From positions 1-34,184 of the forward strand of contig JAJZTR010000005.1 of NCBI GenBank assembly GCA_021848775.1: a stretch of DNA of 34,184 bases, given 5' to 3'. Position numbers and translations under genes: made by a program. Position 1 is the stretch's first letter, and each line of letters begins with the position of its first letter. The notes below the pieces were generated by a model. The model had not been told where the DNA came from. It worked only from the letters and a program-made list of their open reading frames with translations, and ran no database searches. Shown one piece after another: positions 8,552 to 23,463 of this stretch. The DNA is from Chloroflexota bacterium (GTDB lineage: Bacteria; Chloroflexota; Anaerolineae; Anaerolineales; Anaerolineaceae).

Positions 8552-8606
8552 ATCCTATGCGAAAGGGGCTATTCATGTCCCTAATTAAATCTATAAAAAC
8601 CCTATC
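8552..8606 (-). promoter_or_regulatory. Conserved promoter element, site A
   Basis: Read on the minus strand: -35-like GGGACA (8576-8581), an 18-bp spacer containing AATAGCCCC, and -10-like TAGGAT (8552-8557). Upstream TAG motifs (ATAG at about 8591 and 8602) are spaced about 11 bp. GGTAAT follows the -10. It drives the eRF1-like gene and the Lys-rich gene. Confidence 0.72.
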
Positions 8607-8897
8607 AGAATCTTATTCCGGTTCACCCTCGTGATAAACCTCCCGTTTGATCGTTGTCTTTTTAGGCTGAAAAGATCTCCCAGGTTGTTTTTAAAATCAA
8701 GTTGACCATATCTGAATTTAATCGGTTCAAGAGGATAGAAAAGACCTGGTCAGGGTACCTGGTCAGGTCTTTTGCCGCCGGAAAACTATTCGTTCTTTGT
8801 TGTCGGGCTAATTCGCCAGCCCGCCGGTCGCGGCGACATTTTCCTTTTGTCTGAGCATCACGTCCATTGGATCACCGCAAGGATCGAGATTGCTAAT
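8607..8897. other. Intergenic region between operons
   Basis: About 290 bases lie between site A and the end of the acidic protein gene. The region holds the hairpin at 8739-8772. I see no gene or other repeat in it. Confidence 0.4.
8739..8772 (-). terminator. Hairpin terminator, nested inverted repeat
   Basis: Outer arms AAAAGACCTG and CAGGTCTTTT enclose a second small stem CAGG-GTA-CCTG. On the minus strand TTTTCTATCCTCTT follows. It suits the end of the operon 9820 to 8898, and it is symmetrical enough to work in both directions. Confidence 0.65.
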
Positions 8898-9260
8898 CTA
8901 GCTCCCCCAGGTCGTTTCCGCTAACGATTCGTCCGCAAGCGGCATTGAACGGACAACTTCTTCAACAGGCTCCTCATTGACAATCAATTCGTCCATCGGG
9001 CCAACTGCAGCAATGGTCCCGCCCATCGGAATCTCCTGGTTAGGAGTCTCAAACATCTGAATCTCATCCGGAAGAGGTCCACTCAGCGGTTCCACGGATG
9101 CAACGGTCCCACCCATGGGCGTATCGTTGATAAGAGACTCATCCACCGGGGTTCTGTCGGCAAAAGTATCCGATTTTAATGTCGGGGGGTTGGTGTCTTT
9201 ATCGATTTCCCCAATGATTTCTGAGGTTTCGTCAAGGTTTCTGTAAACCTGGTCTGTCAT
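8898..9260 (-). CDS. Acidic hypothetical protein with two PMGGT repeats
   Basis: A 120-residue, strongly acidic and probably disordered protein. It contains two copies of a short motif, PMGGTVASVEPL and PMGGTIAAVGPM, about 30 residues apart, with Glu/Asp-rich stretches between. It has no signal peptide, membrane segment or recognised domain. Its ATG overlaps the stop of the preceding gene (ATGA), so it is translationally coupled to the membrane-anchored protein 9257-9820. The hairpin at 8739-8772 ends the operon and site B at 9909 starts it. I cannot assign a function. Confidence 0.62.
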   Translation of the reverse strand: MTDQVYRNLDETSEIIGEIDKDTNPPTLKSDTFADRTPVDESLINDTPMGGTVASVEPLSGPLPDEIQMFETPNQEIPMGGTIAAVGPMDELIVNEEPVEEVVRSMPLADESLAETTWGS

Positions 9261-9820
9261 TTCAAATTCTCCTTTACGGCATCTACCTCTTTTCCGAGGA
9301 GTTCCTCAAACAGCGACCGATAATGGATCAAAGCCTGCCTTAAATCTTCAGTATTTGCCTGTTGCTGCTCATTTTTTAGTGCTATTTCGCGAGCAGCGCG
9401 GTAGTTGCTTACTAATCCAGGATAGTTGACTGAGATATCGGCCGCACGCTGCTCAAAATCTGAGACTGGATAGGCGCGAATCTGCATAACTTCCATGATC
9501 AGGCGGTCGGCATTACCAATTGCCTGACCTGGTTCGTCGACAAATTTTGATTGGATTGCAGCCCAATTCGCCAGATAACGCTCACGGTCAGCGGCAGACA
9601 GTGGTTTGATATTCAAACCCGCGACATGCTTCTGGCGTTCATCCAGCTCTGCTTGGGCTTTCTTTTTATTGCCCAAAGCCTGCACTGTGCGATCATATTC
9701 AGTCCCAAAACGGTCTTGGAGCTTTTTCGAACGGTTCCGGCTTGAAAAAGATGAAGCCAATAGCAAGCCAACGATCACCAGCACCGCGACAGCGATGACG
9801 ATTATCAATGTAGAATCCAC
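9257..9820 (-). CDS. Membrane-anchored hypothetical protein with helical cytoplasmic or extracytoplasmic domain
   Basis: A 187-residue protein with one N-terminal membrane segment (about residues 4-24). The remainder is helical, charged and rich in Gln, Glu and Lys, and contains LSAADRERYLANWAAIQSKF and a coiled-coil-like end. Similar short proteins with this layout are common in bacterial genomes as proteins of unknown function. The start is GTG at 9820, chosen for the strong AAGGAGG six bases upstream. It is the first gene of the operon under promoter B, with a leader of about 80 bases. Its stop overlaps the start of the acidic protein gene, so the two products may act together. Confidence 0.72.
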   Translation of the reverse strand: MDSTLIIVIAVAVLVIVGLLLASSFSSRNRSKKLQDRFGTEYDRTVQALGNKKKAQAELDERQKHVAGLNIKPLSAADRERYLANWAAIQSKFVDEPGQAIGNADRLIMEVMQIRAYPVSDFEQRAADISVNYPGLVSNYRAAREIALKNEQQQANTEDLRQALIHYRSLFEELLGKEVDAVKENLK

Positions 9821-9908
9821 AAAAACCTCCTTGATTATTGGTGAAAAACCCCTTTGCCATACTCACCGTACAAAGGGGATCTTCGTTATTGACAAACTTA
9901 CAACTACC

Positions 9909-9964
9909 ATAGTACAAAACCACGGCTATCTTTGTCCCCAAAAATACCTATATTATTCCTATTA
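9909..9964 (-). promoter_or_regulatory. Conserved promoter element, site B
   Basis: Minus strand: GGGACA (9933-9938), an 18-bp spacer with AGATAGCC, and TACTAT (9909-9914). Upstream are ATATAGG and AATAGG, about 11 bp apart, and GGTAGT follows the -10. It drives 9820-8898. Confidence 0.7.
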
Positions 9965-10196
9965 AATGTCAGCAAGAAAAAATCCTATCAGCCTGAAATT
10001 CATTGCTTCTCCAGGGTTCCGCGCCAGGAATTTTTATTTCCCCATCACCGTTCCACTATTGAATTTTCTGGAACGGTTTAATCGTTTTCAACACAGAGCA
10101 ATAAAATTATTGCCTGAGTGCGGTCAGCGACAGGCAATTACCATTGGTCAGACGCCTACATTAATGAGCCGCTTTCCAATATACCATTGGACAGAT
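9965..10196. other. Intergenic region between rhomboid gene and site B
   Basis: About 230 bases with no credible gene. It contains the possible terminator at 10109-10138. The rest shows no recognisable structure. Confidence 0.4.
10109..10138 (-). terminator. Possible terminator of the rhomboid gene
   Basis: An 8-bp inverted repeat (ATTGCCTG/CAGGCAAT) encloses a 14-base loop. On the minus strand it is followed by AATAATTTTATT. The stem is short for its loop, so the call is moderate. Confidence 0.45.
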
Positions 10197-10856
10197 TTAC
10201 GACCGTTTCGATAACGCTGGCGTCCCGCGATTCCCGCCCAGCAGAAAGGTGAATGCTAATCCCGCTATAAATCCACCGATGTGCGCCATGTATGCCACAC
10301 CTCCGGTTTGCGCGGTATCAGCGATCGAGCCAATCCCGCTAAATAGCTGCAGAACGATCCATAACCCAATGACTACCAACGCCGGCAAAGGGATTACGCC
10401 CCTGCCCATCAGTACATTAACTTTCCCCTTCGGGAACATCACGATGTAAGCTCCGAGTACACCGGCGATCGCCCCAGACGCGCCCACGTTTGGCACATTC
10501 GACCCAGCACTAAAAGCCAGCTGTGCGAACATAGCCACAACGCCAGCCAACAGGTAGAAGATGATGAACTTGAGGTGACCAAAACGGTCTTCCACGTTAT
10601 CGCCAAAGATCCACAGGTACAGCATATTGCCACCGAGGTGGAGCCAACCTGCGTGCATAAACATTGAAGTGAAGATCGTCAGAACATCACCTCCGGGATT
10701 CGCAAGAAAACGGCTCGGAATAAAAGCCCATTTTTGGATAAATGCGTCCCCTCCACTTAATTCAACCAGGAAGAAGATGACGTTGATCACGATCAAGGCA
10801 TACGTGACCAGTGGAACTGTTCTGCGAGCGCTATTGTCATCACCAATTGGAAACAT
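10197..10856 (-). CDS. Rhomboid family intramembrane serine protease
   Basis: A 219-residue polytopic membrane protein. The catalytic serine lies in GASGAIAGVLG (Ser about 127). The catalytic histidine lies in YMAHIGGFIAGL (His about 192). WLHLGGNMLYLWIFGDNVED is the usual loop and second-helix region. Rhomboids cut membrane proteins within the bilayer; the substrate here is unknown. The size and the Ser-His dyad indicate an active, single-domain bacterial rhomboid. ATG is preceded by AAGAGGA. It lies within the stress-gene block between a CBS protein and the membrane/acidic pair, and none of the six conserved promoter elements is directly upstream. Confidence 0.92.
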   Translation of the reverse strand: MFPIGDDNSARRTVPLVTYALIVINVIFFLVELSGGDAFIQKWAFIPSRFLANPGGDVLTIFTSMFMHAGWLHLGGNMLYLWIFGDNVEDRFGHLKFIIFYLLAGVVAMFAQLAFSAGSNVPNVGASGAIAGVLGAYIVMFPKGKVNVLMGRGVIPLPALVVIGLWIVLQLFSGIGSIADTAQTGGVAYMAHIGGFIAGLAFTFLLGGNRGTPALSKRS

Positions 10857-10987
10857 AGGGTTTTCCTCTTAAAGGGTGCCACCCAGTTTTTGGCCAGGTG
10901 GCAGATTGCTAGCAGGTAAGCGTAATGAGGTTGTCATCAAAGGTACCAATATCAAAATTTATAAAAGGTCCTTTACCAGGTTCCCTG

Positions 10988-11425
10988 TTACTTCTTACCG
11001 GTTTGTGAAATATCTTTCACAATTTCAGCAGTTTTTTCAGGCTGGTTCACCCGCGTCGCCACATCGGCCTGAGCAATAATTCCGAGGATCTTATTATCGT
11101 CATTCACGATGGGAATACGGCGCAGCTGATGCTCAGACATCATATCCAACGCTCTTTGAATATCGTCATCAGGCCGGCAGGTCACCAGCTTATAAGTCAT
11201 GACCTCTTCTACTTGAACCGATTTGGGATCCAATCCCTGGCCAACAATTCTCAAAGCCAGATCACGATCCGTCACGATGCCGACCAATTTTCGCGTCTCG
11301 TTGTTTTCGATCACAGGTATCGAACCGATGTTTTCACGCTTCATCCATTGGGCTACTTTCATAACCGAGTCAGACGGCCGGCAGCAAATGGGATTTTTTG
11401 TCATTACTGATTCGCATGTATGCAT
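10988..11425 (-). CDS. Two-CBS-domain protein
   Basis: A 145-residue protein with two CBS domains in tandem. The first is about residues 5-60 (VMTKNPICCRPSDSVMKVAQ...GIVTDRDLALRIV). The second is about 70-130 (EEVMTYKLVTCRPDDDIQRA...GIIAQADVATRV). CBS pairs bind adenosyl nucleotides and usually sense energy state. Stand-alone CBS proteins of this size are common near stress genes, and their partners are generally unknown. I chose the internal ATG at 11425, which follows AAGAGGAGAA. A longer frame from 11500 lacks such a site. Confidence 0.88.
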   Translation of the reverse strand: MHTCESVMTKNPICCRPSDSVMKVAQWMKRENIGSIPVIENNETRKLVGIVTDRDLALRIVGQGLDPKSVQVEEVMTYKLVTCRPDDDIQRALDMMSEHQLRRIPIVNDDNKILGIIAQADVATRVNQPEKTAEIVKDISQTGKK

Positions 11426-11640
11426 AGAATTCTCCTCTTTACAAGAACAGGTAACCACTTCCAAAATAAATGGATCCTTATGGATACCTGCTGAATTCAC
11501 AGGTAACTGATCGTTCTACTCATTGAGGTCGTAGTCATTCGGCTGGACCTAAAGACCGGGCAAGGATCATCTCATTCGTGAATTCAATTGAGCCACGAAC
11601 ATTTCACCTAGCCTGGTCTATCGGTCCCAATCCTGGAATT

Positions 11641-11796
11641 CTATATAACCCCAAGCAGCGTCAAGATGACGAGGATGATCGCGATAACGATGAGCGTGTG
11701 AATCCAGCTACCGGTTTTCGGAAAACTTGGAATCGCTCTTCCACCGAAAGCGCCGAGCAGCCATAAGACAAACAGAATGATAATGATAGTCCACAT
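11641..11796 (-). CDS. Small two-helix membrane protein, lmo0937/DUF5670-like
   Basis: A 51-residue protein starting MWTIIIILFVLWLLGAF and ending ILVILTLLGVI. Two hydrophobic helices are separated by a short polar turn with KTGSWIH. This matches the small lmo0937-type (DUF5670) membrane proteins, which have the same length and the WLLG motif. ATG at 11796 is preceded by AAAGGAGAAATATC, a strong ribosome binding site, and the gene ends in TAG. Its role is unknown. It lies in a row of small membrane proteins that are typical companions of stress genes. Confidence 0.75.
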   Translation of the reverse strand: MWTIIIILFVLWLLGAFGGRAIPSFPKTGSWIHTLIVIAIILVILTLLGVI

Positions 11797-11878
11797 GATA
11801 TTTCTCCTTTTACCTTAATTGAATCTTCCCAGGTCATTTACCGGGTGGCATTTGACTAAAGCAGGGAATTAAATGAGA

Positions 11879-12133
11879 TTATCGTCTCCGACGAATTAAA
11901 CGGACGATTGCCAGCAGGATGATGGTACCCAGTAGCGTTACCAGCATGGTCGGAACGGTGATCGCATCGTTGATTGTCCCGACACCAAAGATTGGGCTTA
12001 GGAAGTAACCGGCCAGGAATGCGCCTACGATAGCCACGACGATGTTGATCAACAGGTTTGAGCGGTCATGCATGATTTCAGTCGCCACCCAGCCAATACC
12101 TGCAGCAACGATCAGGTAGATGAGGATGTTCAA
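11879..12133 (-). CDS. GlsB/YeaQ/YmgE family small membrane protein
   Basis: An 84-residue protein with three hydrophobic segments and the family pattern GWVATEIM...NIVVAIVGAFLAGYFL, ending in a basic IRRRR. These transglycosylase-associated proteins are common in stress regulons; their exact activity is not proven. The start is TTG at 12133, chosen because AGGGAGA lies 7 bases upstream and the residues from here fit the family. It lies downstream of the first Dps gene, on the same strand, with about 210 bases between. Confidence 0.85.
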   Translation of the reverse strand: MNILIYLIVAAGIGWVATEIMHDRSNLLINIVVAIVGAFLAGYFLSPIFGVGTINDAITVPTMLVTLLGTIILLAIVRLIRRRR

Positions 12134-12343
12134 ATTTTCTCCCTAGTGTATGTATGGGTCGAGTGGAATGCGGTGTGTGTGATTGTTGCTCCACCTCCTG
12201 CTTGGGAGGGAGGGATGGGAATTTTCCCGCGGATGTCATGAGGGTGAAGCGGGTTCATACCCTTTACGCTTTGGATGCATGCTACCGGCTCGGGTTGTTA
12301 TCTTTCATACATTATTTCCTTCCTGGCTCTCGCCGACAAAAGG

Positions 12344-12856
12344 TCAGGTCTCGAAATATGTACGAAGCTCCCAGGCCATCTTTTCATGTTGAACCAGGAT
12401 TTCCACTAAAAATTGGCGTGTGACTTCGTCTCCATACTCTTCCGAACATTTTTTGGCGCTCTCGCGCAAGCTACGGATTGCGACCTCATGCGCTGCCAAA
12501 AGTTCCTTAATATCAGGGGCATCACCATGAAGATCACCCCACTTGAAGTTGGCGAAAAATTTCTGCAGTCTGTCAACGGCAATTTCGCCCAGCATTCGGA
12601 CCCGCTCAGTGAGCTTTTCTAAAATAAGGTTGAGCTGCCCAGAGTGGGAAGAAAGCAAGCCTCGCTGCTCAACAAAATCCTTCCCCCTCAGGTTCCAATG
12701 GGCAAAGCGGGTATTAATGGTTAGTCCGGTTTCAAGGGGTAGCAGCTTGTTGAGGATTTCTACAACAGCTCGGCGATCATCGCCTTCCAACCCTATGTTC
12801 GGTTGGAGATCAACCTGCAGCATTCTGTTGGTTAGCTCTTTGCGACTCTGTCCCAT
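12344..12856 (-). CDS. Dps-like ferritin protein with altered ferroxidase site
   Basis: A 170-residue protein of the Dps/ferritin-like family. It keeps the first ferroxidase His (FAHWNLRG) and the Glu of TERVRMLGE. The second His of the usual LHxLFE is replaced (QRGLLS in this position), and the Asp before AER is Glu. Iron oxidation is therefore doubtful, while DNA-binding or cage functions could remain. ATG at 12856 is chosen: AAAGGA lies 6 bases upstream, and site C places transcription start near 12887, so the ATG at 12889 would hardly be transcribed. Compare the canonical paralogue at 17828-18409. Confidence 0.82.
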   Translation of the reverse strand: MGQSRKELTNRMLQVDLQPNIGLEGDDRRAVVEILNKLLPLETGLTINTRFAHWNLRGKDFVEQRGLLSSHSGQLNLILEKLTERVRMLGEIAVDRLQKFFANFKWGDLHGDAPDIKELLAAHEVAIRSLRESAKKCSEEYGDEVTRQFLVEILVQHEKMAWELRTYFET

Positions 12857-12893
12857 GGAAATCCTTTCGCCCGATAGCTTTGACTGCATACCT

Positions 12894-12948
12894 ATCCTAT
12901 TTGAAAAGGGCTATCGAAGTCCCTAACACGATCTAAAAAATATCTAAA
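12894..12948 (-). promoter_or_regulatory. Conserved promoter element, site C
   Basis: Minus strand: GGGACT (12918-12923), an 18-bp spacer with CGATAGCCC, and TAGGAT (12894-12899). Upstream TAGA motifs lie about 11 bp apart. It drives the first Dps gene and directly abuts the terminator at 12958-12980. Confidence 0.74.
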
Positions 12949-12957
12949 CAAAAAATA

Positions 12958-12980
12958 GGCGTGAGGATTCAATCCTCGCC
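12958..12980 (-). terminator. Terminator of the AI-2E permease operon
   Basis: The hairpin GGCG(a)GGATTGAATCC(T)... has a GAGGAT-TCA-ATCCTC core and outer GGC/GCC pairs. On the minus strand TATTTTTTGTTT follows, a classical T-tract, and it separates the permease genes from promoter C. Confidence 0.78.
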
Positions 12981-13061
12981 CACTTGATAGCCGATAATAA
13001 TGACTGCTGCTAACTGGCCATCTGACCGTTCCTGCTGTGGTTGGGGAAAGGCGATAAATCC

Positions 13062-14255
13062 TCATTCAGCGGTTTCAGGTCGTGCAATCGTCTGAATAAT
13101 GGGATCGGCTTTCTCAATCAGTTGAGTGAGACGCTCCATGCTGCTGGTCACCGATCGTGGAGGAGGTTCATCCATGGCCTGAATGGTGGTCATGAGGTGT
13201 TCCTGCCGTGCTATAAGGTCCGAAACCAGGGCGGCGGCCCCTGGAGCATGTCGATGGCTAACCAGCCGGCGCCACAGGATTTGACATACCACAGATAATG
13301 GCGGCGCAAAAATGATGCCGATAATGCCAAAAGCGTCTGCCAGAGCAATCATCAAAATGATGGTCAGAATGGGGTTATCCCATTTACGCTTTAACAGCCG
13401 CGGCTTGACCCACACAATCAGGGCAATCATGACGATGAGAGCATAGGAGGCGGTCAACAAACTCATTTGCACACTGGTTAACAATCCAAACAGGAGCGGA
13501 GCAAGGATTGCCAGAGCAGCCCCGACCACGGGAATTAAACTCGCCAGAGCGCCAGCCAGCGCCAGGAGTGCCGGATATGGAGACCCGAGCAGCCAGTAGC
13601 CAAGGCCTAACAGCAACCCGGCCAGGATGCTTTGGATTACCTGACCGCGAATATATCCGCCAAGGTCAGGCTCGACAACCCGCCACACCCCGCGCGCTTG
13701 CTTGCGCTGACCAGACGGCAGCAAAGAAAGCCAGAGTCTTTCGAAGTGGACCTGACTTATGCTCCAGTAGACACTCAGAAAAAAAATAATAATCAGGGCG
13801 CTCACCAGCCCGCCAATGCCCTGCATAAAGCCGAGCAGAGTCGGAAGGACAAGCTCCCCTTGATTGCCGGTTACTTCCTGGAACAGAACACTCGGAGACG
13901 GCAAGGGGGAAATCAGAGATCGTTCGAATGAGGAGCCCCGAAGCCAAAGCGGCAGCGCCCATTCATCCTGAACCGCCATTGACTGAGCAAACACCTGGAT
14001 TTCATTGATTGCGCTTTGACCGGTCAGGACGAGCAAAAGGCCAAAACCGGCCAGGACAACCAGATATAGAATTACCCAGGCCGCACGGACAACAAATTTT
14101 CGTCCGGTCAGGCGATTAATCAACGGACGCACAGTCGCGGCAAGCATGAGCGAGATCACAACATAAATAACTACAATTCGAAATTGCCACAACATCACCA
14201 GAGCCAGCAATGTAGTCATAACTGCCGCACCGTACTTTACCAATTGCCTGTTCAT
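13062..14255 (-). CDS. AI-2E family transporter (PerM-like permease), second copy
   Basis: A 397-residue membrane protein of the AI-2E/PerM family. It has seven to eight hydrophobic segments, an extracytoplasmic-type region in the middle, and the family end GIIFAPPLSVVCQILWRRLV before a hydrophilic tail. Family members export small molecules or act as Na+/H+-coupled carriers; the substrate is unknown here. Its start overlaps the stop of the upstream paralogue by four bases (ATGA), so they are translationally coupled and may form a hetero-oligomer. The terminator at 12958-12980 ends the operon. Confidence 0.88.
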   Translation of the reverse strand: MNRQLVKYGAAVMTTLLALVMLWQFRIVVIYVVISLMLAATVRPLINRLTGRKFVVRAAWVILYLVVLAGFGLLLVLTGQSAINEIQVFAQSMAVQDEWALPLWLRGSSFERSLISPLPSPSVLFQEVTGNQGELVLPTLLGFMQGIGGLVSALIIIFFLSVYWSISQVHFERLWLSLLPSGQRKQARGVWRVVEPDLGGYIRGQVIQSILAGLLLGLGYWLLGSPYPALLALAGALASLIPVVGAALAILAPLLFGLLTSVQMSLLTASYALIVMIALIVWVKPRLLKRKWDNPILTIILMIALADAFGIIGIIFAPPLSVVCQILWRRLVSHRHAPGAAALVSDLIARQEHLMTTIQAMDEPPPRSVTSSMERLTQLIEKADPIIQTIARPETAE

Positions 14256-15529
14256 GGTGTACCTGAAGTTTGTTCTTGAGCCAGCAGCGCATCCAGATCG
14301 GTGGTTATGGCCTCAATTTCATCCATCACATGGTCAATTTGTTTTATCCTGAGGTCCGAACCGCTCCTATCGAGCCGCGCCTGTTTGCGCAAATCCTGGG
14401 CCAGGTCCTGAGCTTCGTAGCGCAGCCGGCTGGCATAATCACGATCAGGTGAGGTTTCCGGCTCCTGCTCTGCAGGATGGAAAACAAACCGATCGAGCAG
14501 CAGCTGAAAAATGGCTGCAGTGGGAATTGCCATGAGCGCGCCAACAATGCCGAACAATGAAGTAAAGGCAAAAATTGCCAGCAGCGAGACGAAAGGATTA
14601 ACACCCACCGCCTTACGCATTACCCGCGGCACGAGAAAAATACTTTCCGTCTGCTGGATAACCAGTGTGGCGACTACGACCCATATCAACTTAGATGGCG
14701 CTATGGATAAGGCAATGATCCCGGCCGGAAAGGCGCCAAGCAGCGGTCCAATCAAAGGAACTGCCTCCAACACCCCTGCCACGAGCGCCAGCACCAGGGC
14801 ATTTGGCAGACCGATCAGCAGATAGGTAATCAGAGACAGAGCTCCAATAACCAGACAAAGCACACCTTGACCGGCAATATAATATCCAACCTTATCTTCT
14901 ATGGCTGAAAACAATTCACCAATGTTTTCGCGCCGGCTTTTTGGAATCAATTGCAATAATGATTGGATCGTTCGCGGGCCGTCAAGTGTCCAGTGAAAGG
15001 CTAACAACAAAACCACTGTAGCCAGAAAGACAGCTTTGGCGGCTCCTGTGATATAGCCTGCCGCCTGGCCGGCGAACACCAGCATCTGCGCTCCTGTTTG
15101 CTCCATGGTTGTTGTTAGGGCTGGCAATGCTGCTGGTAAGAGCGTACTCAGTTGCACAAGCAACGGATTGGGAGAATCAGCCATCCACTGATGAAGGTTC
15201 AGGTAGTAACCCGGCACCGCAGCAACAATTGTTGAGCCCTGCTCAACAATGGACGGAAACACCAAAAGCACGAAGCCAACAATCAGGGCAAGCAGAAGCA
15301 GGTAAACAAGCAGGACTCCTGCGATCCTGTGGACACCTCGCCGATTCAACCAGCTTACGATCGGCCTGATCACCGTGCCTAACATGATGGCAAAAAATAA
15401 GGCAAAGACGACCTGGTAGAACCGGTAAAAAAGCCAGAAGCAGAGTGCAACGGATACGAGCACGATCGTTGCCCACATGACACTTCGAAACGTCCATTGA
15501 TTCGGTTGGTTAGGCGGATTGATTGCCAT
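14252..15529 (-). CDS. AI-2E family transporter (PerM-like permease), first copy
   Basis: A 425-residue permease of the same family as its downstream neighbour. It has an N-terminal pair of membrane helices, a soluble section, then the conserved block LVAGVLEAVPLIGPLLGAFP, and a C-terminal helix pair ending in PTAAIFQLLLDRFVF. A charged tail of about 70 residues follows, with coiled-coil character. It is the first gene of a two-gene operon. The ribosome binding site before ATG is weak. Similarity between the two copies is moderate, so they are an old duplication rather than a recent one. Confidence 0.88.
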   Translation of the reverse strand: MAINPPNQPNQWTFRSVMWATIVLVSVALCFWLFYRFYQVVFALFFAIMLGTVIRPIVSWLNRRGVHRIAGVLLVYLLLLALIVGFVLLVFPSIVEQGSTIVAAVPGYYLNLHQWMADSPNPLLVQLSTLLPAALPALTTTMEQTGAQMLVFAGQAAGYITGAAKAVFLATVVLLLAFHWTLDGPRTIQSLLQLIPKSRRENIGELFSAIEDKVGYYIAGQGVLCLVIGALSLITYLLIGLPNALVLALVAGVLEAVPLIGPLLGAFPAGIIALSIAPSKLIWVVVATLVIQQTESIFLVPRVMRKAVGVNPFVSLLAIFAFTSLFGIVGALMAIPTAAIFQLLLDRFVFHPAEQEPETSPDRDYASRLRYEAQDLAQDLRKQARLDRSGSDLRIKQIDHVMDEIEAITTDLDALLAQEQTSGTP

Positions 15530-15777
15530 ACTCGCCCTAACCTTTCAGTAAATTAGGAGAAAAACAAGATCTGGTCAATACAATCGGTTTCAAATTCACC
15601 TCGCCTGCTTTTTCAACCATTGTTCCGCGAAGCAGTTCTTTTCGGTTTTCCAGATACCATTCATTTATTACGTTCTTACCCATTAATTGGAAAAGTTGCC
15701 CCATTGTCATTCCCAAATCAGCAGGTTATGCCTTAATAAGTGGAAAACATCCTTTTATCTACCGGAAAGGTCAATTC

Positions 15778-15969
15778 TTAGCTCTGAGATAAACCCTTAC
15801 TAGGTTTCTTCTTCCAATCCGAAACCAAATTCGGGACATCCTTACCGCTAACAGTTGGCTGGTTCTCATCAGCCTGCCTGACTGATGAAATCCTTTTTGT
15901 AATGCCGCTTGACATCGGTTTAGATCTGGTCTGACCTGGCTTGCGCTTGCTTACACCCTTACGACCCAT
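15778..15969 (-). CDS. Small basic hypothetical protein
   Basis: A 63-residue, Lys/Arg/Ser-rich protein starting MGRKGVSKRKPGQTRSK and ending WKKKPSKGLSQS. It has no membrane segment or known domain and is probably disordered; nucleic-acid binding is possible. ATG at 15969 is chosen for the strong TAAGGAG site 7-8 bases upstream. The longer frame to 16161 lies over the neighbouring small membrane protein and the hairpin at 16013-16061, so I reject it. I do not know its function. Confidence 0.6.
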   Translation of the reverse strand: MGRKGVSKRKPGQTRSKPMSSGITKRISSVRQADENQPTVSGKDVPNLVSDWKKKPSKGLSQS

Positions 15970-16061: not shown

Positions 16062-16063
16062 GC

Positions 16064-16198: not shown

Positions 16199-16325
16199 GT
16201 TATTCCTCCACCCCTAATCTCTTCTGGATAAGGGAAATCTTTCGGATTGTTCCACATAACCGGCTGTGTCAATCAATGATTGAGAAACCGGTGGTGTGCT
16301 AAATTCACGGTCGACCCGTGTCAGG

Positions 16326-16811
16326 TTATAAGGTATTCGTGTGCTCGGTAGTCGTCGTTTGACTTTCAGCTGAGGGAGCCTGAGTAGTCGTTGTCCGCGT
16401 CTGGCTGACACCTTGTGGCGGTGTATGCTCTGCAACGACCGTCTGCCTGGTGCTTACAGGGCCTCTTGGGCGGTAGAAAAGCACATATACTATTTTCACA
16501 AGGGCCCAACCGATCAGAGCGTAAACGATCATGGCAATCAGGGTGGATACTTCAAGCACCATGCCGCCCGCTGCCGGGGCACCCGTTAAACTGGCGAAGG
16601 GAGCTACGAAAAAGTCGGTAAATGCGTAAAGGAGCGACGCGAATGCATTGGCTGCATTGACTCCGACCAACTTAAAAATAAACCGCAATGCCAGTACACC
16701 CTCGAGCAAACCAACCAGCAGCCAGATCAATTGGGTGACCTTGAAAGTCGTTACCCGACCTTCGCTTCCTTGTTCGTGGGCTGTGGTTCGTACTTCTTTA
16801 TAGTCTGTCAT
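16326..16811 (-). CDS. YggT family membrane protein
   Basis: A 161-residue protein with a short hydrophilic start, two clear hydrophobic hairpins (WLLVGLLEGVLALRFIFKLV and LIAMIVYALIGWALVKIVYV), and the YggT motif FTDFFVAPF between them. The tail of about 50 residues is Thr/Gln-rich, unlike typical YggT, and probably disordered. Its ATG overlaps the stop of the csbD-like gene (ATGA), so the two are coupled. YggT proteins are linked to osmotic tolerance in some bacteria; here the stress role is inferred from the context. Confidence 0.8.
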   Translation of the reverse strand: MTDYKEVRTTAHEQGSEGRVTTFKVTQLIWLLVGLLEGVLALRFIFKLVGVNAANAFASLLYAFTDFFVAPFASLTGAPAAGGMVLEVSTLIAMIVYALIGWALVKIVYVLFYRPRGPVSTRQTVVAEHTPPQGVSQTRTTTTQAPSAESQTTTTEHTNTL

Positions 16812-16999
16812 ATCGTCCTCTTTCTATATTCTTCTTGAGCCTGCTCCCGGGTATAACCGTACTTCTCCTGAAGCATGCCGATAAATTGATCGAACTTACC
16901 GTCGACCTTATCCAGGTCATCGTCGGTGAGTTTGCCCCACCAGATTTTTGCCTGTCCGCGTATTTGTTTCCATTTTCCTTCAAAAACATCATCGTTCAT
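16808..16999 (-). CDS. CsbD family stress protein
   Basis: A 63-residue acidic helical protein with the family pattern FEGKWKQIRGQAKIWWGKLT DDDLDKVDGK, then KYGYTREQAQEEYRKR. CsbD proteins are strongly expressed under general stress in several bacteria, but their biochemical role is unknown. ATG follows AAGGAGAAAAA. It is coupled to the YggT-like gene by a four-base overlap and lies just downstream of the DUF883-like gene. Confidence 0.92.
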   Translation of the reverse strand: MNDDVFEGKWKQIRGQAKIWWGKLTDDDLDKVDGKFDQFIGMLQEKYGYTREQAQEEYRKRTI

Positions 17000-17037
17000 T
17001 TTTTCTCCTTAAGAATGAGTTGCCTAGAATTTCAAGT

Positions 17038-17469
17038 CTACCGAGGAGCCTGCCGGGCAGGTCTGATTAACATTCCCAGCAAGAAACCAGCTACCACGGT
17101 AATCGATAGCGCCACCCAGGGGTATTTGGCTGCCTGCTCACTTAACCCGCCGGGAGCTTTGTCCGCCATCTCCTGAACTTTCGTGTTGTATTGACTCAAT
17201 CCATGACCAATATCCTTTTTCAGCGTTGCTGCTGCTCCAACCATGGACTCTCTTGCATCTCCGGAAAGTTTTCCAAGTTCCCTGCTCATTTTGGAAGCGT
17301 TATCTTCGACCCAGGTAGTAATGCCGGCTTTGGCATGGGTAGTGGCATCAGAAATGTTATCCTCAACATTGCTTACTCGAGCGGCGCTATCTTCTGCCAG
17401 GGCACCAAGATCCTTTTTTACTTTGGCAGCATCCCGCCGGATTTTTCTGTCCAATTTACGATCGTTCAA
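17038..17469 (-). CDS. DUF883/ElaB/YqjD-like membrane-anchored helical protein
   Basis: A 143-residue protein with a long charged helical region (about 1-110) and one C-terminal membrane helix, YPWVALSITVVAGFLLGMLI, followed by a basic tail. This is the layout of the ElaB/YqjD/DUF883 family, whose members tether to the inner membrane and in Escherichia coli bind ribosomes in stationary phase. The start appears to be TTG at 17469, with an AAAGAGAA site upstream. It is upstream of the csbD-like gene with a 38-base gap. The family call rests on architecture and the C-terminal helix, so it is fairly but not fully certain. Confidence 0.72.
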   Translation of the reverse strand: MNDRKLDRKIRRDAAKVKKDLGALAEDSAARVSNVEDNISDATTHAKAGITTWVEDNASKMSRELGKLSGDARESMVGAAATLKKDIGHGLSQYNTKVQEMADKAPGGLSEQAAKYPWVALSITVVAGFLLGMLIRPARQAPR

Positions 17470-17566
17470 CTGTAATTCTCTTTTCTGGCTTTCGCCATGA
17501 TTCTTTCTTGTTAGATCTTTAATCGATAAGGTTTGAAATCAACAATCGGGAATAAGTCCTTCGACT

Positions 17567-17803
17567 TTACCCCTGGCTTGCCTGACTTACAAAGACTGTA
17601 TTGCTGCGCGAACTGTATCCAGCCCAGTAAATTTTTCCATCAACTTTGAACTCGCTCAGGACCACCGACCGGCCAACTTCTCCGATTTGTTCAACATAAA
17701 CTGTTTTGTAATCCGGTACGCGAATGACCTTTACACCGGTTTCTCCCTGTTCATCCTTTCGGCTGAACTGTTCGACAATCTGGGTCATCTGTATTTCATT
17801 CAT
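17567..17803 (-). CDS. Small hypothetical protein downstream of Dps
   Basis: A 78-residue soluble protein with alternating strands: VKVIRVPDYKTVYVEQIG, VVLSEFKVDGKIYWAGYSSR, NTVFVSQ. It has no Cys, signal or membrane segment, and I do not recognise the family. ATG follows GGAGATAGTT, and the gene begins 24 bases after the second Dps gene ends, so it is very likely in the same operon under promoter D. A role together with Dps is inference. Confidence 0.62.
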   Translation of the reverse strand: MNEIQMTQIVEQFSRKDEQGETGVKVIRVPDYKTVYVEQIGEVGRSVVLSEFKVDGKIYWAGYSSRSNTVFVSQASQG

Positions 17804-17827
17804 AACTATCTCCGCATTTGCAGTTGA

Positions 17828-18409
17828 CTATGAGGAAAGGCTCGTAATGTCCGCTGGTAGGTGGGGCATTACACCCAATTTATCGATGGCGACTGGTTCA
17901 ATCTCGAGGTAGGAACGCAGCATCCAGGCCATCTTTTCATGCAGGCGCATAACACTTACGAGCAATTCGAATGTGCCTTCGTCCTCGTACTCCTCATTGC
18001 ATTTTCTGGCATCCTCCCGTAAAAAGCGGATTGCAGCCTCATGATCGGCTAAAAGGATCATGATTTTTGGGACGCTGCCTGGTTGTTCCGCTAATCGCGA
18101 GAATTGGATAAATTCCTGGAGGCTTCCAATGGCAATCCCGCCCAGCATCCGCGACCGCTCTGCAATCTCGTCTGAAATTTCGTTCAATTGTTTATATTGG
18201 GAATCAAATAAGATATGCAGCTCTAAGAAGCCGCTACCACTCACGTTCCAATGGGCGTTCCGGGTCTTTTGGGAGAGTACAGCCTCATTGGCCAGTGTAT
18301 TGTTGAGAATATCCACAACCGAATGACGGACTTCGCTATCCAGACCGATATTTGGCTGGATTTCAACCTGTAAATTCGTTTTGTGGCCATCGTTACGATT
18401 AGGTTCCAT
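17828..18409 (-). CDS. dps: Dps family DNA-binding ferritin-like protein
   Basis: A 193-residue Dps protein with a canonical ferroxidase site: His in NAHWNVSG, His and Asp in LHILFD, and Asp and Glu in SDEIAERSRMLGG. Dps proteins form 12-subunit cages that store iron, remove hydrogen peroxide and bind DNA in stress. The N-terminal extension (about 20 residues, with Arg, Lys and Asn) could contact DNA. ATG at 18409 is chosen because of AAAGGAAAG just upstream. The GTG at 18442 coincides with the transcription start predicted from site D. The gene leads an operon with the small protein at 17567. Confidence 0.9.
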   Translation of the reverse strand: MEPNRNDGHKTNLQVEIQPNIGLDSEVRHSVVDILNNTLANEAVLSQKTRNAHWNVSGSGFLELHILFDSQYKQLNEISDEIAERSRMLGGIAIGSLQEFIQFSRLAEQPGSVPKIMILLADHEAAIRFLREDARKCNEEYEDEGTFELLVSVMRLHEKMAWMLRSYLEIEPVAIDKLGVMPHLPADITSLSS

Positions 18410-18448
18410 TTGCTTTCCTTTCAATAGATGGTTTAATGCCACAATAAC

Positions 18449-18504
18449 ATCCTATTAGAAAAGGGCTATCGACGTCCCTAATACAACCTATATAACTTCT
18501 ATTA
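18449..18504 (-). promoter_or_regulatory. Conserved promoter element, site D
   Basis: Minus strand: GGGACG (18473-18478), an 18-bp spacer with CGATAGCCC, and TAGGAT (18449-18454). Upstream are ATATAGG and AATAG, 11 bp apart, and GTTATT follows. It drives the canonical Dps gene. It is nearly identical to site C from TTAGGGAC through TAGGAT. Confidence 0.76.
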
Positions 18505-18602
18505 AATTCATTACTGCATGGGTCGGTGAATTATTGAAAAGCCTCGAATTTAATAACTTAGTAAAAAGTTGTTCATCCCAGAAGTTACTCGAGCCCGCGG
18601 AA

Positions 18603-19397
18603 TTATGGTTGTGAATTCGATGGCTCTTCGGTACTAATTGTCGCAAAAACGACGGTGTGGTGATCGAACTCGCCGTTCACGTATCTTCCAGCGCAGGTTA
18701 TGAGAGTTAGGTGAGAAAGACCGTCCAGTGCTGGCTGTGGTCCTGTGCCTTCAACTATTCCTGGACCGTAAATCTTTGAAAGGACAGTTGGATCGGTAGA
18801 CTCTTGGATGGAGTAAACCTTAATTTGATCGACAATGAAGCGAATATTGAGTGTGGAATTCTTGACATGAACTATGATCGCGTCACCGGGAGAAAGGTTC
18901 TTTAGGTTGGCAAAGATCTCAGGATTGCCGAGCGGGTCGGTGACGTGCCCTGCAATGGTAGCCGTGCCTGACTCACCCGGTATGCCACCGCCGCGGTACC
19001 AAAATGCCGTGTGCCAGACCGGATCGCCAATTGGACCTTTAGGCGCATCCATTACATTGTCCGCAGTGAGACCCACGCCAAGCACCGGGGCATTGACATT
19101 AAGTACAGGAATCTGAAGCTCGAGCGGCACGTCCACAGGTCCAGATCTCAGGTCAAGGTTTAAATCATAGGAAGAGCCGAGGATGAAGAGCGTGGGTGTC
19201 GGTTCAATGGTTGGTTCGGCTGTTGGTTGAATTGTCGGTTGTGCTGTCGGCTGGATCGTCACTGATAACAAAGAAGACAGGGAGGGCAAAGGGAGCGCCT
19301 TCCCTGTCTCTAAATTTCCACATCCTGCCAGCAATATTACAATTGCGAGGATAGCAGTAAGCCAACCGAGCGAGATGCGGTCTGAGTGATCCATCAT
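18603..19397 (-). CDS. Sortase, predicted lipoprotein
   Basis: A 264-residue sortase-family transpeptidase. The catalytic Cys is in LTLITCAGRY (about 235) and the His is in TIAGHVTDP (about 151). The N-terminus (from 19397) has a hydrophobic stretch ending in LLAGC, a good lipobox with Cys about 26. A PT-rich spacer (QPTIQPTAEPTIEPTPT) follows before the beta-barrel domain, so a lipid anchor is likely; sortases normally use an uncleaved helix. Where an Arg is expected before the last strand, the sequence reads FDHHTVVFA, so the catalytic Arg may be replaced. The start is chosen 22 bases after the DUF3494 gene ends. The ribosome binding site is weak, which suggests coupling. Confidence 0.85.
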   Translation of the reverse strand: MMDHSDRISLGWLTAILAIVILLAGCGNLETGKALPLPSLSSLLSVTIQPTAQPTIQPTAEPTIEPTPTLFILGSSYDLNLDLRSGPVDVPLELQIPVLNVNAPVLGVGLTADNVMDAPKGPIGDPVWHTAFWYRGGGIPGESGTATIAGHVTDPLGNPEIFANLKNLSPGDAIIVHVKNSTLNIRFIVDQIKVYSIQESTDPTVLSKIYGPGIVEGTGPQPALDGLSHLTLITCAGRYVNGEFDHHTVVFATISTEEPSNSQP

Positions 19398-19419
19398 TGC
19401 TCGCGCTACGATTGCCTGA

Positions 19420-20337
19420 TTACTTTGACAGGTAATCGCGGCGCATTGATCGTAAGCCATAGAATAAAGCGACCGCGCTAGCGCCAATTAGGATTACCAG
19501 AATCCAAGGGGAGCTGCCATCCCGAATGGGCCCACCGCCTGTGCTTGGTAGCCCGGCGACAACTGGCAAAAGCGTGGCAGTTGCCTGTGTATTTTCCGAT
19601 GTAGCCGCAGGTGTTTCAGTGCTCGGGGTCGGTTCTTGCGCCAGGCAGCCCGAACCAGTGATGGTGTTGGAATCCAGTGTTACTGCACCCGTTTGCGCCA
19701 GGGCTCGACCATTCAAGCTTGCACCCGTCTGCAGGCTGATGGACGTGAAAGCAAGAATATTTCCTATGAACGAAGTGCCGGTACCGATCGTCGCAGAGCT
19801 GACCACCCGCCACCACACGTTGCAAGGGTCGCCACCCACCACAGATGAACCAGACGATGTGGTAAGAGCAGCTGCTGACTTGAAAATCCAGACCCCTGAA
19901 CCACTGAGGGTGAGTACCCCTGACAGCGCAAAGGCGTCCGCACAATAGACGCCCGGTACCAGGTTTTCGCCAGCAAGATCCTTGGTACCTGGATAGGTCG
20001 TGTCACAGCTTTGATCGAGCGAGGTGAAGGCAGCGGTAGAATCAGCCTGAGCCTGTGCCGCGTTTGCATCCGCAGAATGGAGCGTACCTGGGGGACCAAC
20101 TGTGCCCGGGGGGAACCCTGTCACAGCAGAACCGGGACTCACGCCAAGATTCCCAGGCATGATCGTCGGACCCGTATTGGTCACTGTCTCACCCGCCAGA
20201 ACAGAGTAGGTCCCTGCCGCGCCCAAGGTCGGCGAAGTGGCTGCTAAGGAGCTTGCAATCACATTTGTAAACACTCCTGCCATAGAAAGTGACAGGACCA
20301 GCATAACTGAAATTGCCAATAACATTCTTTTTTGCAT
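19420..20337 (-). CDS. DUF3494 (ice-binding-like) surface protein with LPSTG sorting signal
   Basis: A 305-residue exported protein. It has a signal peptide (about 1-29), then a DUF3494 / ice-binding-like domain (about 30-225) with NLGVSPGSAVTGFPPGTV, LTPGVYC-like LVPGVYCADAFALSG, and SFIGNILAFTSISLQTGAS. A Thr/Ala/Pro-rich linker follows. The C-terminal sorting signal is LPSTG (263-267), a hydrophobic helix, then a basic tail with RRDYLSK. Sortase should therefore link it to the cell wall. DUF3494 proteins include ice-binding adhesins but many have other surface roles. ATG at 20337 follows AGGAGG at 9 bases. It forms an operon with the sortase and is driven by site E. Confidence 0.88.
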   Translation of the reverse strand: MQKRMLLAISVMLVLSLSMAGVFTNVIASSLAATSPTLGAAGTYSVLAGETVTNTGPTIMPGNLGVSPGSAVTGFPPGTVGPPGTLHSADANAAQAQADSTAAFTSLDQSCDTTYPGTKDLAGENLVPGVYCADAFALSGVLTLSGSGVWIFKSAAALTTSSGSSVVGGDPCNVWWRVVSSATIGTGTSFIGNILAFTSISLQTGASLNGRALAQTGAVTLDSNTITGSGCLAQEPTPSTETPAATSENTQATATLLPVVAGLPSTGGGPIRDGSSPWILVILIGASAVALFYGLRSMRRDYLSK

Positions 20338-20424
20338 TTTATACGGCCTCCTACAAATTTCATCCAACCATCAGATGGTAAAAAGGCATACATTTCCAAC
20401 GAGAAAATGCTTTGCGCCAATACC

Positions 20425-20482
20425 ATCGTAATTGAAGGGGGCTATCAACGTCCCTAATACAGCCTATTAAATTCCTATTAAA
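20425..20482 (-). promoter_or_regulatory. Conserved promoter element, site E
   Basis: Minus strand: GGGACG (20449-20454), an 18-bp spacer with TGATAGCCC, and TACGAT (20425-20430). Upstream AATAGG occurs twice, about 11 bp apart, and GGTATT follows. It drives the DUF3494-sortase operon with a leader of about 80 bases. Confidence 0.74.
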
Positions 20483-20522
20483 TAATATCTACCTAAGTCA
20501 ACAAAATCTTCAGGGAAAAACC

Positions 20523-21206
20523 TTAATATATTTTCTTCGAGTGCAGATCGTAGCCCATTCCAGGGACCGTCTCGATTAGTGCGCCATATTCCCCCATTTT
20601 TTTGCGCAGACGGCCAAGATATGTATGTAAATAGTGGTTTGATCCACGATATTCCGAACCCCAGACCTCAGCGATCAACTCATCGTGCGTCACGATGGAG
20701 TCCAGGTGACGGGCAAGCTCAGCCAAAATGGCATATTCTGTTTTGGTCAGATGCAAATCCTTATCGGCAATGAAGACGCGGCGCTCTGCCAGGTCAATGC
20801 GAAAATCGCCAATCTCTATCTTTGTCTCAGATATTTTTGCGGGGACATAAGACCGGCGCAGGAAAGCGCGTACCCGCGCCAGTAATTCTTCCTGCCCAAA
20901 CGGTTTGGTGACGTAGTCATCCGCGCCGGCATCCAGGGCAGCAACTTTGAGGTCTTCTTCCAAACGCGCGCTCAATATGATGATGGGCACATCCGAACGT
21001 GCCCGGATCCAGGCACAAATATCGACCCCCGAAAGTCCTGGCAGCAGCAGGTCAAGTAGAACCAGGTCCACAGGGACTTCCTGAAATAAAGCGATTGCCT
21101 GGTGGCTATCCCCAGCTTCACTGACCGTATATCCACGTTTCACCAGGTTGACCCGCACTAATTTGCGAATACTCGGGTCGTCTTCAACAATTAATATGTT
21201 GCCCAT
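20523..21206 (-). CDS. OmpR/PhoB-family response regulator
   Basis: A 227-residue regulator. The receiver domain has the acidic pair in VEDD, phospho-acceptor Asp about 52 (VLLDLLLPG) and Lys about 101 (VTKPFG). The winged-helix DNA-binding domain (about 130-225) contains LTKTEYAILAELARH and GSNHYLHTYLGRLRKKM. The overall form is KdpE/PhoB-like. ATG at 21206 follows GAGGGG; the longer frame is not supported. It begins 4 bases after the histidine kinase ends, so the two form one operon and a cognate pair. Regulators of this class bind direct repeats at 11-bp steps, the pattern seen upstream in sites A-F, but regulation of those sites is only inferred. Confidence 0.92.
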   Translation of the reverse strand: MGNILIVEDDPSIRKLVRVNLVKRGYTVSEAGDSHQAIALFQEVPVDLVLLDLLLPGLSGVDICAWIRARSDVPIIILSARLEEDLKVAALDAGADDYVTKPFGQEELLARVRAFLRRSYVPAKISETKIEIGDFRIDLAERRVFIADKDLHLTKTEYAILAELARHLDSIVTHDELIAEVWGSEYRGSNHYLHTYLGRLRKKMGEYGALIETVPGMGYDLHSKKIY

Positions 21207-21210
21207 AGAT

Positions 21211-22914
21211 CTACCCCTCAGTTTCCGGATTTCTTTCCTGGATCGACATCGGCACGAGTGGAATCGTAAAACATATCGTTGCCCCAGGTGCAGCTTTTTT
21301 CTTAATCCAGATACGGCCGCCATGGGCTTCGACCAATCCTTTGCAGATCGCCAATCCCAATCCAGCGCCTTGCGCTGCGCTGTTTTCCATGTTTACACCC
21401 CGACGAAACGCCTCGAATACTTTTTTGTATTCGGCCGGTTGAATACCAGGTCCCTGATCGCTGACATTAATCTGCAAAAAATCTTTTCGCACATTGGCTG
21501 AGACGTTGATTTCACTGCCTTTTGGAGCGTAGGTCGAGGCATTCCGGACCAGATTGACAAGTACCTGACCGATCCGCTTTGTGTCTGCTAAAACCAGCGG
21601 CAGCCTGGCTGGCCAGTGAAAGGTTAAGGTATGCCCGTTTGTCAAGATATGCAATTGCGATGAGGTATCCTCAATAATTTCGTGAATGGACTGCGGTTTC
21701 ATTAATATTGGCAGCCTGCCGGCTTCCAGCCGCGATAGATCCAGAAGATGATCTATCAGCTCCTGCAGCCGGTCAGCTTCCTTTTGAATCGTCATAACGA
21801 AATCATGCTGCTCATTTTGATCCCAGGAGACATCCTCAGCCAGCATTGTGGTCGTAAAGCCGATTATGGATGTCAAAGGAGTACGCAGTTCATGTGAAAT
21901 CATCGCCAGGAATTGAGTCTTGATCTCATTGGCTCGCTCAGCCTCATGTCGCAATTCTTCTTCGACCTTAAGTAATTTGAGGTTGTGAAGGGTCACTGCA
22001 GCCTGGTCAACAAGGATATTAAGATGACGGAGTCCGATATGATCGATGGGATGATCATGTTTGAAATAGATCAACAGGCAGCCGAGCCAGTTCCCGGATG
22101 CAACCAACGGAAGGATTGCCAGAGTTTGGATTTGTGCTTCCGCGAGAGTATCGTATATCAGTGGTTGTAGTCGTGGATCGGATTTGTTTCCATTGATTAC
22201 TACAGCCCGATTGGCGTTGACGAGCTCCCAAAAAGCAGTCTCTTCATACAGGTTGGATTCCCCAGGCCAGGGTGATAGATTCGGGCTGGACAGCCAGGCA
22301 GCAACCACCTCCAACCCGCCCGCAGGCCCGACTTTGGGATCATCAAAGAAAAGCACTGTCGCCCGTTCGGCTGGACGCAGTTCATGGGCAGACATCAAGA
22401 TTTTAAGAACTGCTTCAGGTCTATGTGCCAGGCTCATTCTTCGGCTAAGGTCAAACTGTTCACGCGTGCGGTTCAGGGTTTTCCGCAGCGCCAGCTCGAC
22501 ATCCTTCTGGTCCGTGATGTCCATGGCAATGGTAAACAAAAAGTCCGGTTCACCGACTTCATTTTGGACTAAAAAAGTACGCGCAGACATCCAGCGTGTG
22601 GTGCCGTCTGGACGGATAATACGATAAGCCTGTGAGAATGGTTGATCTGAATTGTGCTGCCTGGCAATCATTACCTGCAATCGGTCTTCCGGGTGAACAC
22701 TTTCGATCAGAATCTGAGGATCGGCATACAGGCTCTGGCAGGATCGTCCCCAAACCGTCGCGAAGGCCGGATTTACATAAAGAATATGCTCGGAGTTAAG
22801 ATCGAACACCCAGACCACCTGGTCAATATTTAGCAAAATTTGCTTGAAGGAAGGATTTCCCTCTAACAAATGTCTTATGTTCATTCGAGATTTGTTGTCG
22901 TTAATGGCTGACAT
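21211..22914 (-). CDS. PAS-GAF sensor histidine kinase
   Basis: A 567-residue soluble histidine kinase: PAS (about 20-140), GAF (about 160-315), HisKA with phospho-His about 341 (MISHELRTPLTSIIGF), and an HATPase domain with VLVNLVRNASTYAP, DQGPGIQP and GAGLGLAICKGLVEAHGG. All nucleotide-binding boxes are present, so it should be active. It has no membrane helix; the signal is cytoplasmic. It is directly upstream of its likely partner regulator. The region upstream (22915-23077) carries no obvious conserved promoter element. Confidence 0.93.
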   Translation of the reverse strand: MSAINDNKSRMNIRHLLEGNPSFKQILLNIDQVVWVFDLNSEHILYVNPAFATVWGRSCQSLYADPQILIESVHPEDRLQVMIARQHNSDQPFSQAYRIIRPDGTTRWMSARTFLVQNEVGEPDFLFTIAMDITDQKDVELALRKTLNRTREQFDLSRRMSLAHRPEAVLKILMSAHELRPAERATVLFFDDPKVGPAGGLEVVAAWLSSPNLSPWPGESNLYEETAFWELVNANRAVVINGNKSDPRLQPLIYDTLAEAQIQTLAILPLVASGNWLGCLLIYFKHDHPIDHIGLRHLNILVDQAAVTLHNLKLLKVEEELRHEAERANEIKTQFLAMISHELRTPLTSIIGFTTTMLAEDVSWDQNEQHDFVMTIQKEADRLQELIDHLLDLSRLEAGRLPILMKPQSIHEIIEDTSSQLHILTNGHTLTFHWPARLPLVLADTKRIGQVLVNLVRNASTYAPKGSEINVSANVRKDFLQINVSDQGPGIQPAEYKKVFEAFRRGVNMENSAAQGAGLGLAICKGLVEAHGGRIWIKKKAAPGATICFTIPLVPMSIQERNPETEG

Positions 22915-23134
22915 GGCTATATTTATTATATACGTTTATGACGCCTATATTAAGGATACTGAACGCTTGTCTGGTCAGAAAGAGCTGACAACGTGGAAAT
23001 TGTAATATATTTCAATCGGGGGTAAGATGAAATCATCATCTAGACAACCATCTATAAAAACTCTCGCGTAGATTAATTTGTGTATTTCCAGGATGCGAGG
23101 TTATGGGACTATGGAAATGCCCAAAGAGGAAAAC

Positions 23135-23338
23135 ATGCTTATCAGATATTCATGCAAGGATATGGGATTGAAATGTTCCTATATAGTCAAGGGCGAAAAC
23201 CAGGAAGACGTGATCCAGCAGGCGTTGGCACATGTGCTGGAAAACCACACCCTTGAATTTAATAGGATCCAGTCTCCAGAAGAGATTGAACAGATGGAGA
23301 AGGCGTTGGCCCTTTCCACCCGGATCGTAGCCGGGTAA
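23135..23338 (+). CDS. DUF1059 small protein
   Basis: A 67-residue protein: MLIRYSCKDMGLKCSYIVKG followed by a helix with ENQEDVIQQALAHVLENH. It matches DUF1059, small proteins with a conserved CxDxG/C pattern and a C-terminal helix, whose function is unknown. ATG at 23135 is chosen because AAAGAGGAAAAC precedes it and the family begins here; the frame upstream to 23078 has no site. It is a single plus-strand gene between the divergent histidine kinase and the site F region. Confidence 0.78.
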   Translation: MLIRYSCKDMGLKCSYIVKGENQEDVIQQALAHVLENHTLEFNRIQSPEEIEQMEKALALSTRIVAG

Positions 23339-23409
23339 ACTCGAAATTCAACCAATTCCCAAAAACCAGCTCACGAAGGTTTAATTTTGGAATGACCTTT
23401 CAGAAAATG

Positions 23410-23463
23410 ATAGTTCTTTTATAGGTTTTTGCAGGGACATTGATAGCCTCCTATTCGTAGAAT
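23410..23463 (+). promoter_or_regulatory. Conserved promoter element, site F
   Basis: Plus strand: GGGACA (23434-23439), an 18-bp spacer with TTGATAGCC, and TAGAAT (23458-23463). Upstream ATAG motifs at 23410 and 23421 are 11 bp apart. It is the only copy on the plus strand and points towards the USP pseudogene. Confidence 0.7.

Follow-up and report, generated by a model that had tools for sequence, protein, structure and literature searches.

General stress regulons are controlled by alternative sigma factors in well-studied bacteria, by SigB in Bacillus and by RpoS in Escherichia coli. Among two-component systems, the pho box of PhoB is located near the −10 element. The pho box is described as two 11-nt repeats in PMC4415409, and the KdpE operator as TTTATA-N5-TTTACA in PMC3264566, where KdpE residues R193 and R200 are reported to be needed; in the model presented in PMC3348028, a PhoB dimer touches polymerase subunits including sigma. 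Here we describe a repeated operator–promoter element, present at six sites in a 34,184-nt stretch of DNA (hereafter the window; contig JAJZTR010000005.1, positions 1 to 34,184) of a Chloroflexota bacterium in the family Anaerolineaceae (assembly GCA_021848775.1, genome G000; 2.73 Mb in 253 contigs, 92% complete), and a response regulator encoded among these sites. We judge it probable (about 0.8) that all six sites belong to a single regulon, as promoters that depend on activation by this regulator (20526–21206, minus strand). A shared regulator for this set of putative stress and surface genes is strongly supported by the comparisons below.

Each site comprises an operator followed by a −10 element. 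Sites A (8552–8604, GGGAC from 8581), B (9909–9961, GGGAC from 9938), C (12894–12946, GGGAC from 12923), D (18449–18501, GGGAC from 18478) and E (20425–20477, GGGAC from 20454) are on the minus strand, and site F (23411–23463, GGGAC from 23434) is on the plus strand. GGGAC, ATAGCC, the TA..AT of the −10 and TAG at −23 and −12 are present in 6/6 sites, GATAGCC in 5/6, and the hexamer GGGACN is separated from the −10 by 18 bp in all six. A preliminary description of this DNA had located the six sites correctly, giving the low ends of the minus-strand sites as the coordinates of A–E, and its account of GGGAC, ATAGCC, GATAGCC, the 18-bp spacer and the repeated upstream TAG is borne out. The search pattern that it offered contained N11 before TANNAT and is in error (one match, two mismatches), whereas TAG-N8-TAG-N9-GGGAC-N4-ATAGCC-N9-TANNAT, with N9 in that place, matches 6/6 sites without mismatch. 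With a profile built from the six sites, these scored 64.8–80.8 in the window and the next-best place −6.9; in leave-one-out searches, only training sites ranked above the omitted site (rank 4 or 6). The short core GGGACNNNNATAGCC has six occurrences in the genome, all on this contig and within the window, and its reversed control has none. The even genome-wide density that the preliminary description had named as a refutation was thus not seen. In sites A–E, inspection by eye shows a sequence resembling a ribosome-binding site, and a start codon, downstream of the −10.

For comparison across genomes, 42 stretches from 31 genomes (778 kb) were scanned, yielding 97 strong sites in 29 genomes; the stretches were picked around model hits or the regulator, and all counts describe this non-random sample. 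The 68-position model was trained on 38 sites, the six from the window and 32 others, after two weak places (G460, 22056; G439, 17687; G and L numbers denote genomes and loci) had been left out. On the whole source genome it returned six sites at E ≤ 0.1, which are themselves part of its training set. The 52-bp element consists of four TnnnATAG-like direct repeats with an 11-bp period and a constant phase relative to the TANNAT −10. G is conserved at −21, −10, +1 and +12 (counted from the first G of GGGAC) in 92, 96, 97 and 94 of the 97 sites, respectively, and in 47, 51, 51 and 48 of the 51 strong sites from 18 genomes outside model training. Self-similarity of the profile is highest at shifts of 11 (0.180) and 22 (0.165), shifts of 10 and 12 giving 0.104 and 0.108. 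Such head-to-tail half-sites with an 11-bp period are characteristic of OmpR/PhoB-family operators, and the period would fit a regulator of this family.

All 51 sites outside training have TANNNT at the common distance, which the search profile already contained. A profile of the operator only, from which the −10 was removed, found 101 sites, whereas shuffled stretches yielded none; in 95 of the 101, TANNNT is at the common distance, in four it is one base nearer, and in two it is at neither place. The rigid phase between operator and −10 is therefore not an artefact of the search. Gene models, made from greedy picks of open reading frames (ORFs), contain 5/97 sites compared with 79% of random positions. 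The next gene is co-oriented with the site in 93 cases (52% for random positions), opposite in three and absent in one, at a median distance of 75 bp; site F of the window is counted among the three opposite cases because of a spurious ORF.

The position of the operator raises the question of the sign of control. The sites cover the −35 region, two half-sites overlapping or following the −35 hexamer, and a regulator bound there might repress, or might have both effects. A steric block tolerates variable placement, whereas the rigid −10 phase in 95 of 101 sites and the poor −35 seem better suited to activation, and we regard repression as unlikely. Activation by the response regulator is the reading that we pursue.

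This regulator and a histidine kinase form a two-component pair situated between sites E and F on the minus strand. The regulator (20526–21206; longest ORF 20523–21323) is of the OmpR/PhoB type, with Response_reg and Trans_reg_C matches of 107.3 bits (cut-off 30.2) and 70.8 bits (cut-off 26.2), and is the proposed binder of the six sites. Residues D9, D52, S79 and K101, corresponding to the phospho-acceptor aspartate and its partners, are invariant in 25 aligned copies (28 found). The proposed partner (21211–22914) shows PAS, GAF, HisKA and HATPase matches and adjoins the regulator in all 11 islands first examined. It is probably a soluble, cytosolic protein, because its only hydrophobic stretch falls within the GAF match. 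The preliminary description had proposed one regulator or an alternative sigma factor and left the response regulator unconnected to the sites; the association is made here, and of its two options the shared regulator is strongly supported and the sigma factor is not favored. Separately, a site was observed ahead of a second, larger histidine kinase (846–997 amino acids) in G542 (L168/L169), G545 (L171) and G552 (L172), an arrangement that is perhaps a feed-forward loop; these loci also have closely spaced divergent sites, of which the minus-facing one is weak.

Comparison with the described systems shows both likeness and difference. The regulator shares its protein family with PhoB, and the operator is an 11-nt direct repeat like the pho box as given in PMC4415409, but the regulator scores 196.3 bits against a cut-off of 296.2 for the PhoB equivalog TIGR02154, and the element has another repeat sequence, four repeats and stress-type targets. 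The top PDB matches of the regulator are RegX3 and KdpE (KdpE 4kfc, 4kny). The KdpE operator, as presented in PMC3264566, has an 11-bp period and a half-site close to TnnnATAG. The regulator nevertheless reaches 168.1 bits against the NF007820 cut-off of 325 for the KdpE equivalog, four half-sites are present here, and no kdp genes were found among the window genes scanned. In the comparison of the regulator with its PDB match, the recognition regions align as SNHYLHTYLGRLRKK versus HSHYLRIYMGHLRQK, KdpE R193 and R200 aligning with H194 and R201. On these sequence matches, the regulator is assigned to the broad OmpR/PhoB family only.

The regulator and the sites occur together within the family. 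Among 61 family genomes, at least 11 (the source genome included) encode the regulator at 73–100% identity, the other matches listed being at ≤45%. The six-site profile found sites in 11/11 regulator regions, scoring 15.9–69.1 outside the source genome, save for two weak ones (2.3 and 1.7), and 39 of the 45 model matches (E < 1e-3) in these genomes sit on the contig of the regulator. In all 11 islands, the interval from the regulator gene to the next Dps gene contains a site. Eight have their Dps-nearest site downstream of the regulator and directly ahead of Dps, with one opposite gene intervening in G452; G456 and G463 have a small RRM gene, which has a site of its own, ahead of Dps; and the window differs in that site E, directly past the regulator gene, leads to DUF3494 and sortase genes, and site D to Dps. 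The search was extended to 147 family genomes (regulator E ≤ 1e-60, sites E ≤ 0.01, Dps E ≤ 1e-25; model scans of more than 40 genomes used stricter filters and scored 34 candidates per genome, smaller scans up to 150). The regulator was found in 27 genomes, the source genome and 26 others, and sites in 30: both in 26, the regulator only in one, sites only in four and neither in 116 (Fisher p = 1.4e-23, without kinship correction). Dps was found in 30 of the 147: every one of the 27 genomes with the regulator, G476, and two relatives without it, G104 and G482. Around Dps in the latter two no site was detected (best scores 6.2, past the gene, with a short profile and −1.6 with a longer profile). 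In G104 (L279, 1347–1793), a FUR-family regulator gene directly precedes Dps, which suggests other control of Dps there, i.e., a swap of control.

The conserved features could also be read as a promoter of an alternative sigma factor, for example of the extracytoplasmic function (ECF) type, recognizing GGGAC as −35 and TANNAT as −10, with the upstream TAG repeats secondary. GGGAC and the −10 are indeed the best conserved parts and stand at a near-constant distance, and the genome has 10 places matching sigma-70 region 2. None of these is on the contig, so that no linked cognate gene is found, a result with which a distant sigma gene would still be compatible. The G of the two upstream repeats, conserved in 92 and 96 of the 97 sites, goes beyond what a sigma factor needs; TANNAT resembles a housekeeping −10; and four 11-bp direct repeats are expected of an OmpR/PhoB-type regulator, one of which is encoded in the island and accompanies the motif from genome to genome. 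We reject an alternative sigma factor as the sole explanation, given the upstream repeat conservation and the lack of a sigma gene on the contig, and we hold it to be very unlikely overall.

The pairing of the response regulator with the sites extends beyond the family. Among 396 genomes of the class, a regulator search at E ≤ 1e-58 gave 15 matches, three in the family and 12 outside it. Five homologs at 56–63% identity (G863, G826, G573, G628 and G814) have a site 51–194 bp beyond the regulator match, and at all five TANNNT keeps its phase. Short-profile scores were 21.8, 22.7, 7.1, 11.8 and 12.1, respectively, and were reached by 0, 0, 6, 1 and 0 of 2000 shuffles each of the 260–300 bp regions. 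AG is present at four repeat places in G863 and at three in G814; G826 lacks the first, and in G573 and G628 the two upstream repeats are one base nearer. Seven homologs at 47–51% identity had no site (best score 2.4). Nineteen paralog loci scored ≤4.2 with the short profile, except L056 (7.4) and L073 (9.3, ahead of its gene), and all ≤1.7 with the longer profile, with which G573 reached only 0.7. In a regulator search of contigs, the best 80 loci included three close orthologs and one at 57% identity, on the same contig as the G826 homolog; sites were found by the model at the three close orthologs only, and by a half-operator profile at the 57% one as well. The gene after the site is CsbD in G573 (Pfam), and in G863 a CsbD-like ORF judged by eye, with no Pfam match. 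As a side observation, the distant regulators in G826, G573, G628 and G814 (L274–L277) follow a second small receiver protein, with a kinase in three of the four, a row that is phosphorelay-like.

These distant pairs bear on the possibility that another DNA-binding protein of the island binds the sites, with the two-component pair carried along through linkage. Linkage by itself is no proof of binding, and four family genomes have sites and no detected regulator. Outside the family, however, the regulator gene and the site stay paired while most other island genes are unmatched nearby, and proteins of the OmpR/PhoB family usually bind 11-bp direct repeats; a passenger role appears highly improbable. 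Mobile-element repeats are rejected, because the genes downstream differ for most sites and the flanks differ too, and so is a chance origin of the sites. Comparisons relied on long patterns or profiles only, because elsewhere in the phylum the short core is no more frequent than chance predicts (148/301 genomes, the reversed control being similar; an exact match occurs in G176, L010). With ≤3 mismatches in 151 genomes of the order, the long pattern matched in G000 (six), in G168 (one, beside the regulator) and in G331 (one, taken as chance), and its reversed control gave four matches in four genomes.

We thus return to activation by the response regulator. In the proposed mechanism, a signal, presumably of stress, would act on the soluble PAS-GAF kinase, which would phosphorylate the regulator at D52. 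Two regulator dimers would then occupy the four head-to-tail half-sites (TnnnATAG; G at −21, −10, +1 and +12). The final half-site stops some 10 bp short of the TANNAT −10, and the bound regulator, on or beside the poor −35 (GGGACN), might contact RNA polymerase with the housekeeping sigma factor, in the manner of PhoB at pho boxes. The gene set so switched on, including Dps, universal stress protein (USP) and DUF3494/sortase genes, would protect DNA, envelope and proteins.

Several points weigh against this reading. No strong site serves the kinase–regulator genes themselves in the window, where the best place upstream of them (23042) scores −14.3. The Fisher value overstates the evidence, because related genomes are not independent. 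The G573 site is marginal by score, as paralog loci L056 and L073 exceed its 7.1 with the short profile, and the case for it comes from place and phase. Four genomes (G476, G480, G525 and G555) have sites but no detected regulator. In G476, pieces of the island are on 3–7 kb contigs, from which the kinase–regulator piece is absent. In the regulator-only genome, G374, the regulator is truncated at a contig end, and the Dps contig starts six bases past the expected −10 position (by comparison with G497), and therefore the site falls in the contig break. Two of the five exceptions, G374 and G476, are thus due to contig breaks. A missing contig piece is a possible explanation for G480 (169 bases of contig upstream of the site), G555 (4.7-kb contig) and G525 (6.1-kb contig, weak site).

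Candidate targets in the window were assigned from the orientation of genes downstream of the sites. Site A precedes ORFs 8107–8529 (called eRF1-like in the preliminary description) and 7724–8095 (Lys-rich), and site B precedes ORFs 9257–9820 (187 amino acids, membrane-anchored) and 8898–9260 (acidic), all on the minus strand; these four had no Pfam or NCBIfam match. The 7724–8095 protein (123 amino acids) has Lys/Pro/Glu/Val repeats with KPEK-like units, and a 93-amino-acid relative is present at the corresponding place in G462. Sites C and D precede, on the minus strand, two Dps genes, Dps 1 (12344–12889) and Dps 2 (17828–18442), each with a Ferritin domain and with Dps models matching below their cut-offs. 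Site E lies ahead of an ice-binding-like DUF3494 gene (19420–20367) and a sortase gene (18603–19487), identified by domain matches (18603–20367 together, minus strand). Site F precedes an ORF of 258 amino acids with a Usp domain (23986–24762, plus strand). Its orthologs have 346–362 amino acids, and more USP-like sequence continues in another frame; this is either a broken or truncated gene, or a sequencing error. The counterpart of site F leads to USP, or to short-chain dehydrogenase/reductase (SDR) and USP genes, in G462, G452 and G476.

Across genomes, candidate targets include Dps, USP, RRM, CsbD, DUF3494 and GGDEF genes. Dps is the next gene in 39 of the 93 co-oriented cases. Further Pfam matches after sites are SDR, RRM_1 and CsbD and, at 216–474 bp, Fe/Mn superoxide dismutase, glucoamylase and DUF5670. 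The small RRM_1 RNA-binding proteins following sites are at L079 8367–8654, L080 1207–1539 and L089 266–538 (G456, G460 and G463). The gene content suggests a stress regulon. Dps, CsbD, universal stress protein and small envelope proteins are also kinds of target found in the SigB and RpoS regulons, while control here is apparently by a response regulator encoded within the gene set.

The open-access literature searched, in which most subscription titles are absent, yielded no description of such a regulon. Systems of this kind are known, and this member and its operator appear to be new. To our knowledge, few regulons have been described in the mostly uncultured Anaerolineae, for which sequence by itself here yields a candidate regulator, operator, targets and promoter phase. 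The common operator would place genes without a name, encoding the 187-amino-acid membrane protein and the acidic and Lys-rich proteins, in one regulon. We tentatively suggest, as a possibility somewhat short of even, that the portable island is a core general-stress switch of part of the class, relying on a soluble-sensor two-component system rather than on an alternative sigma factor to drive a stress gene set, its rigid four-half-site operator having co-evolved with the regulator across families. If our reading is true, these bacteria would have a stress regulon with SigB/RpoS-like content, governed by a two-component system within the gene set itself.

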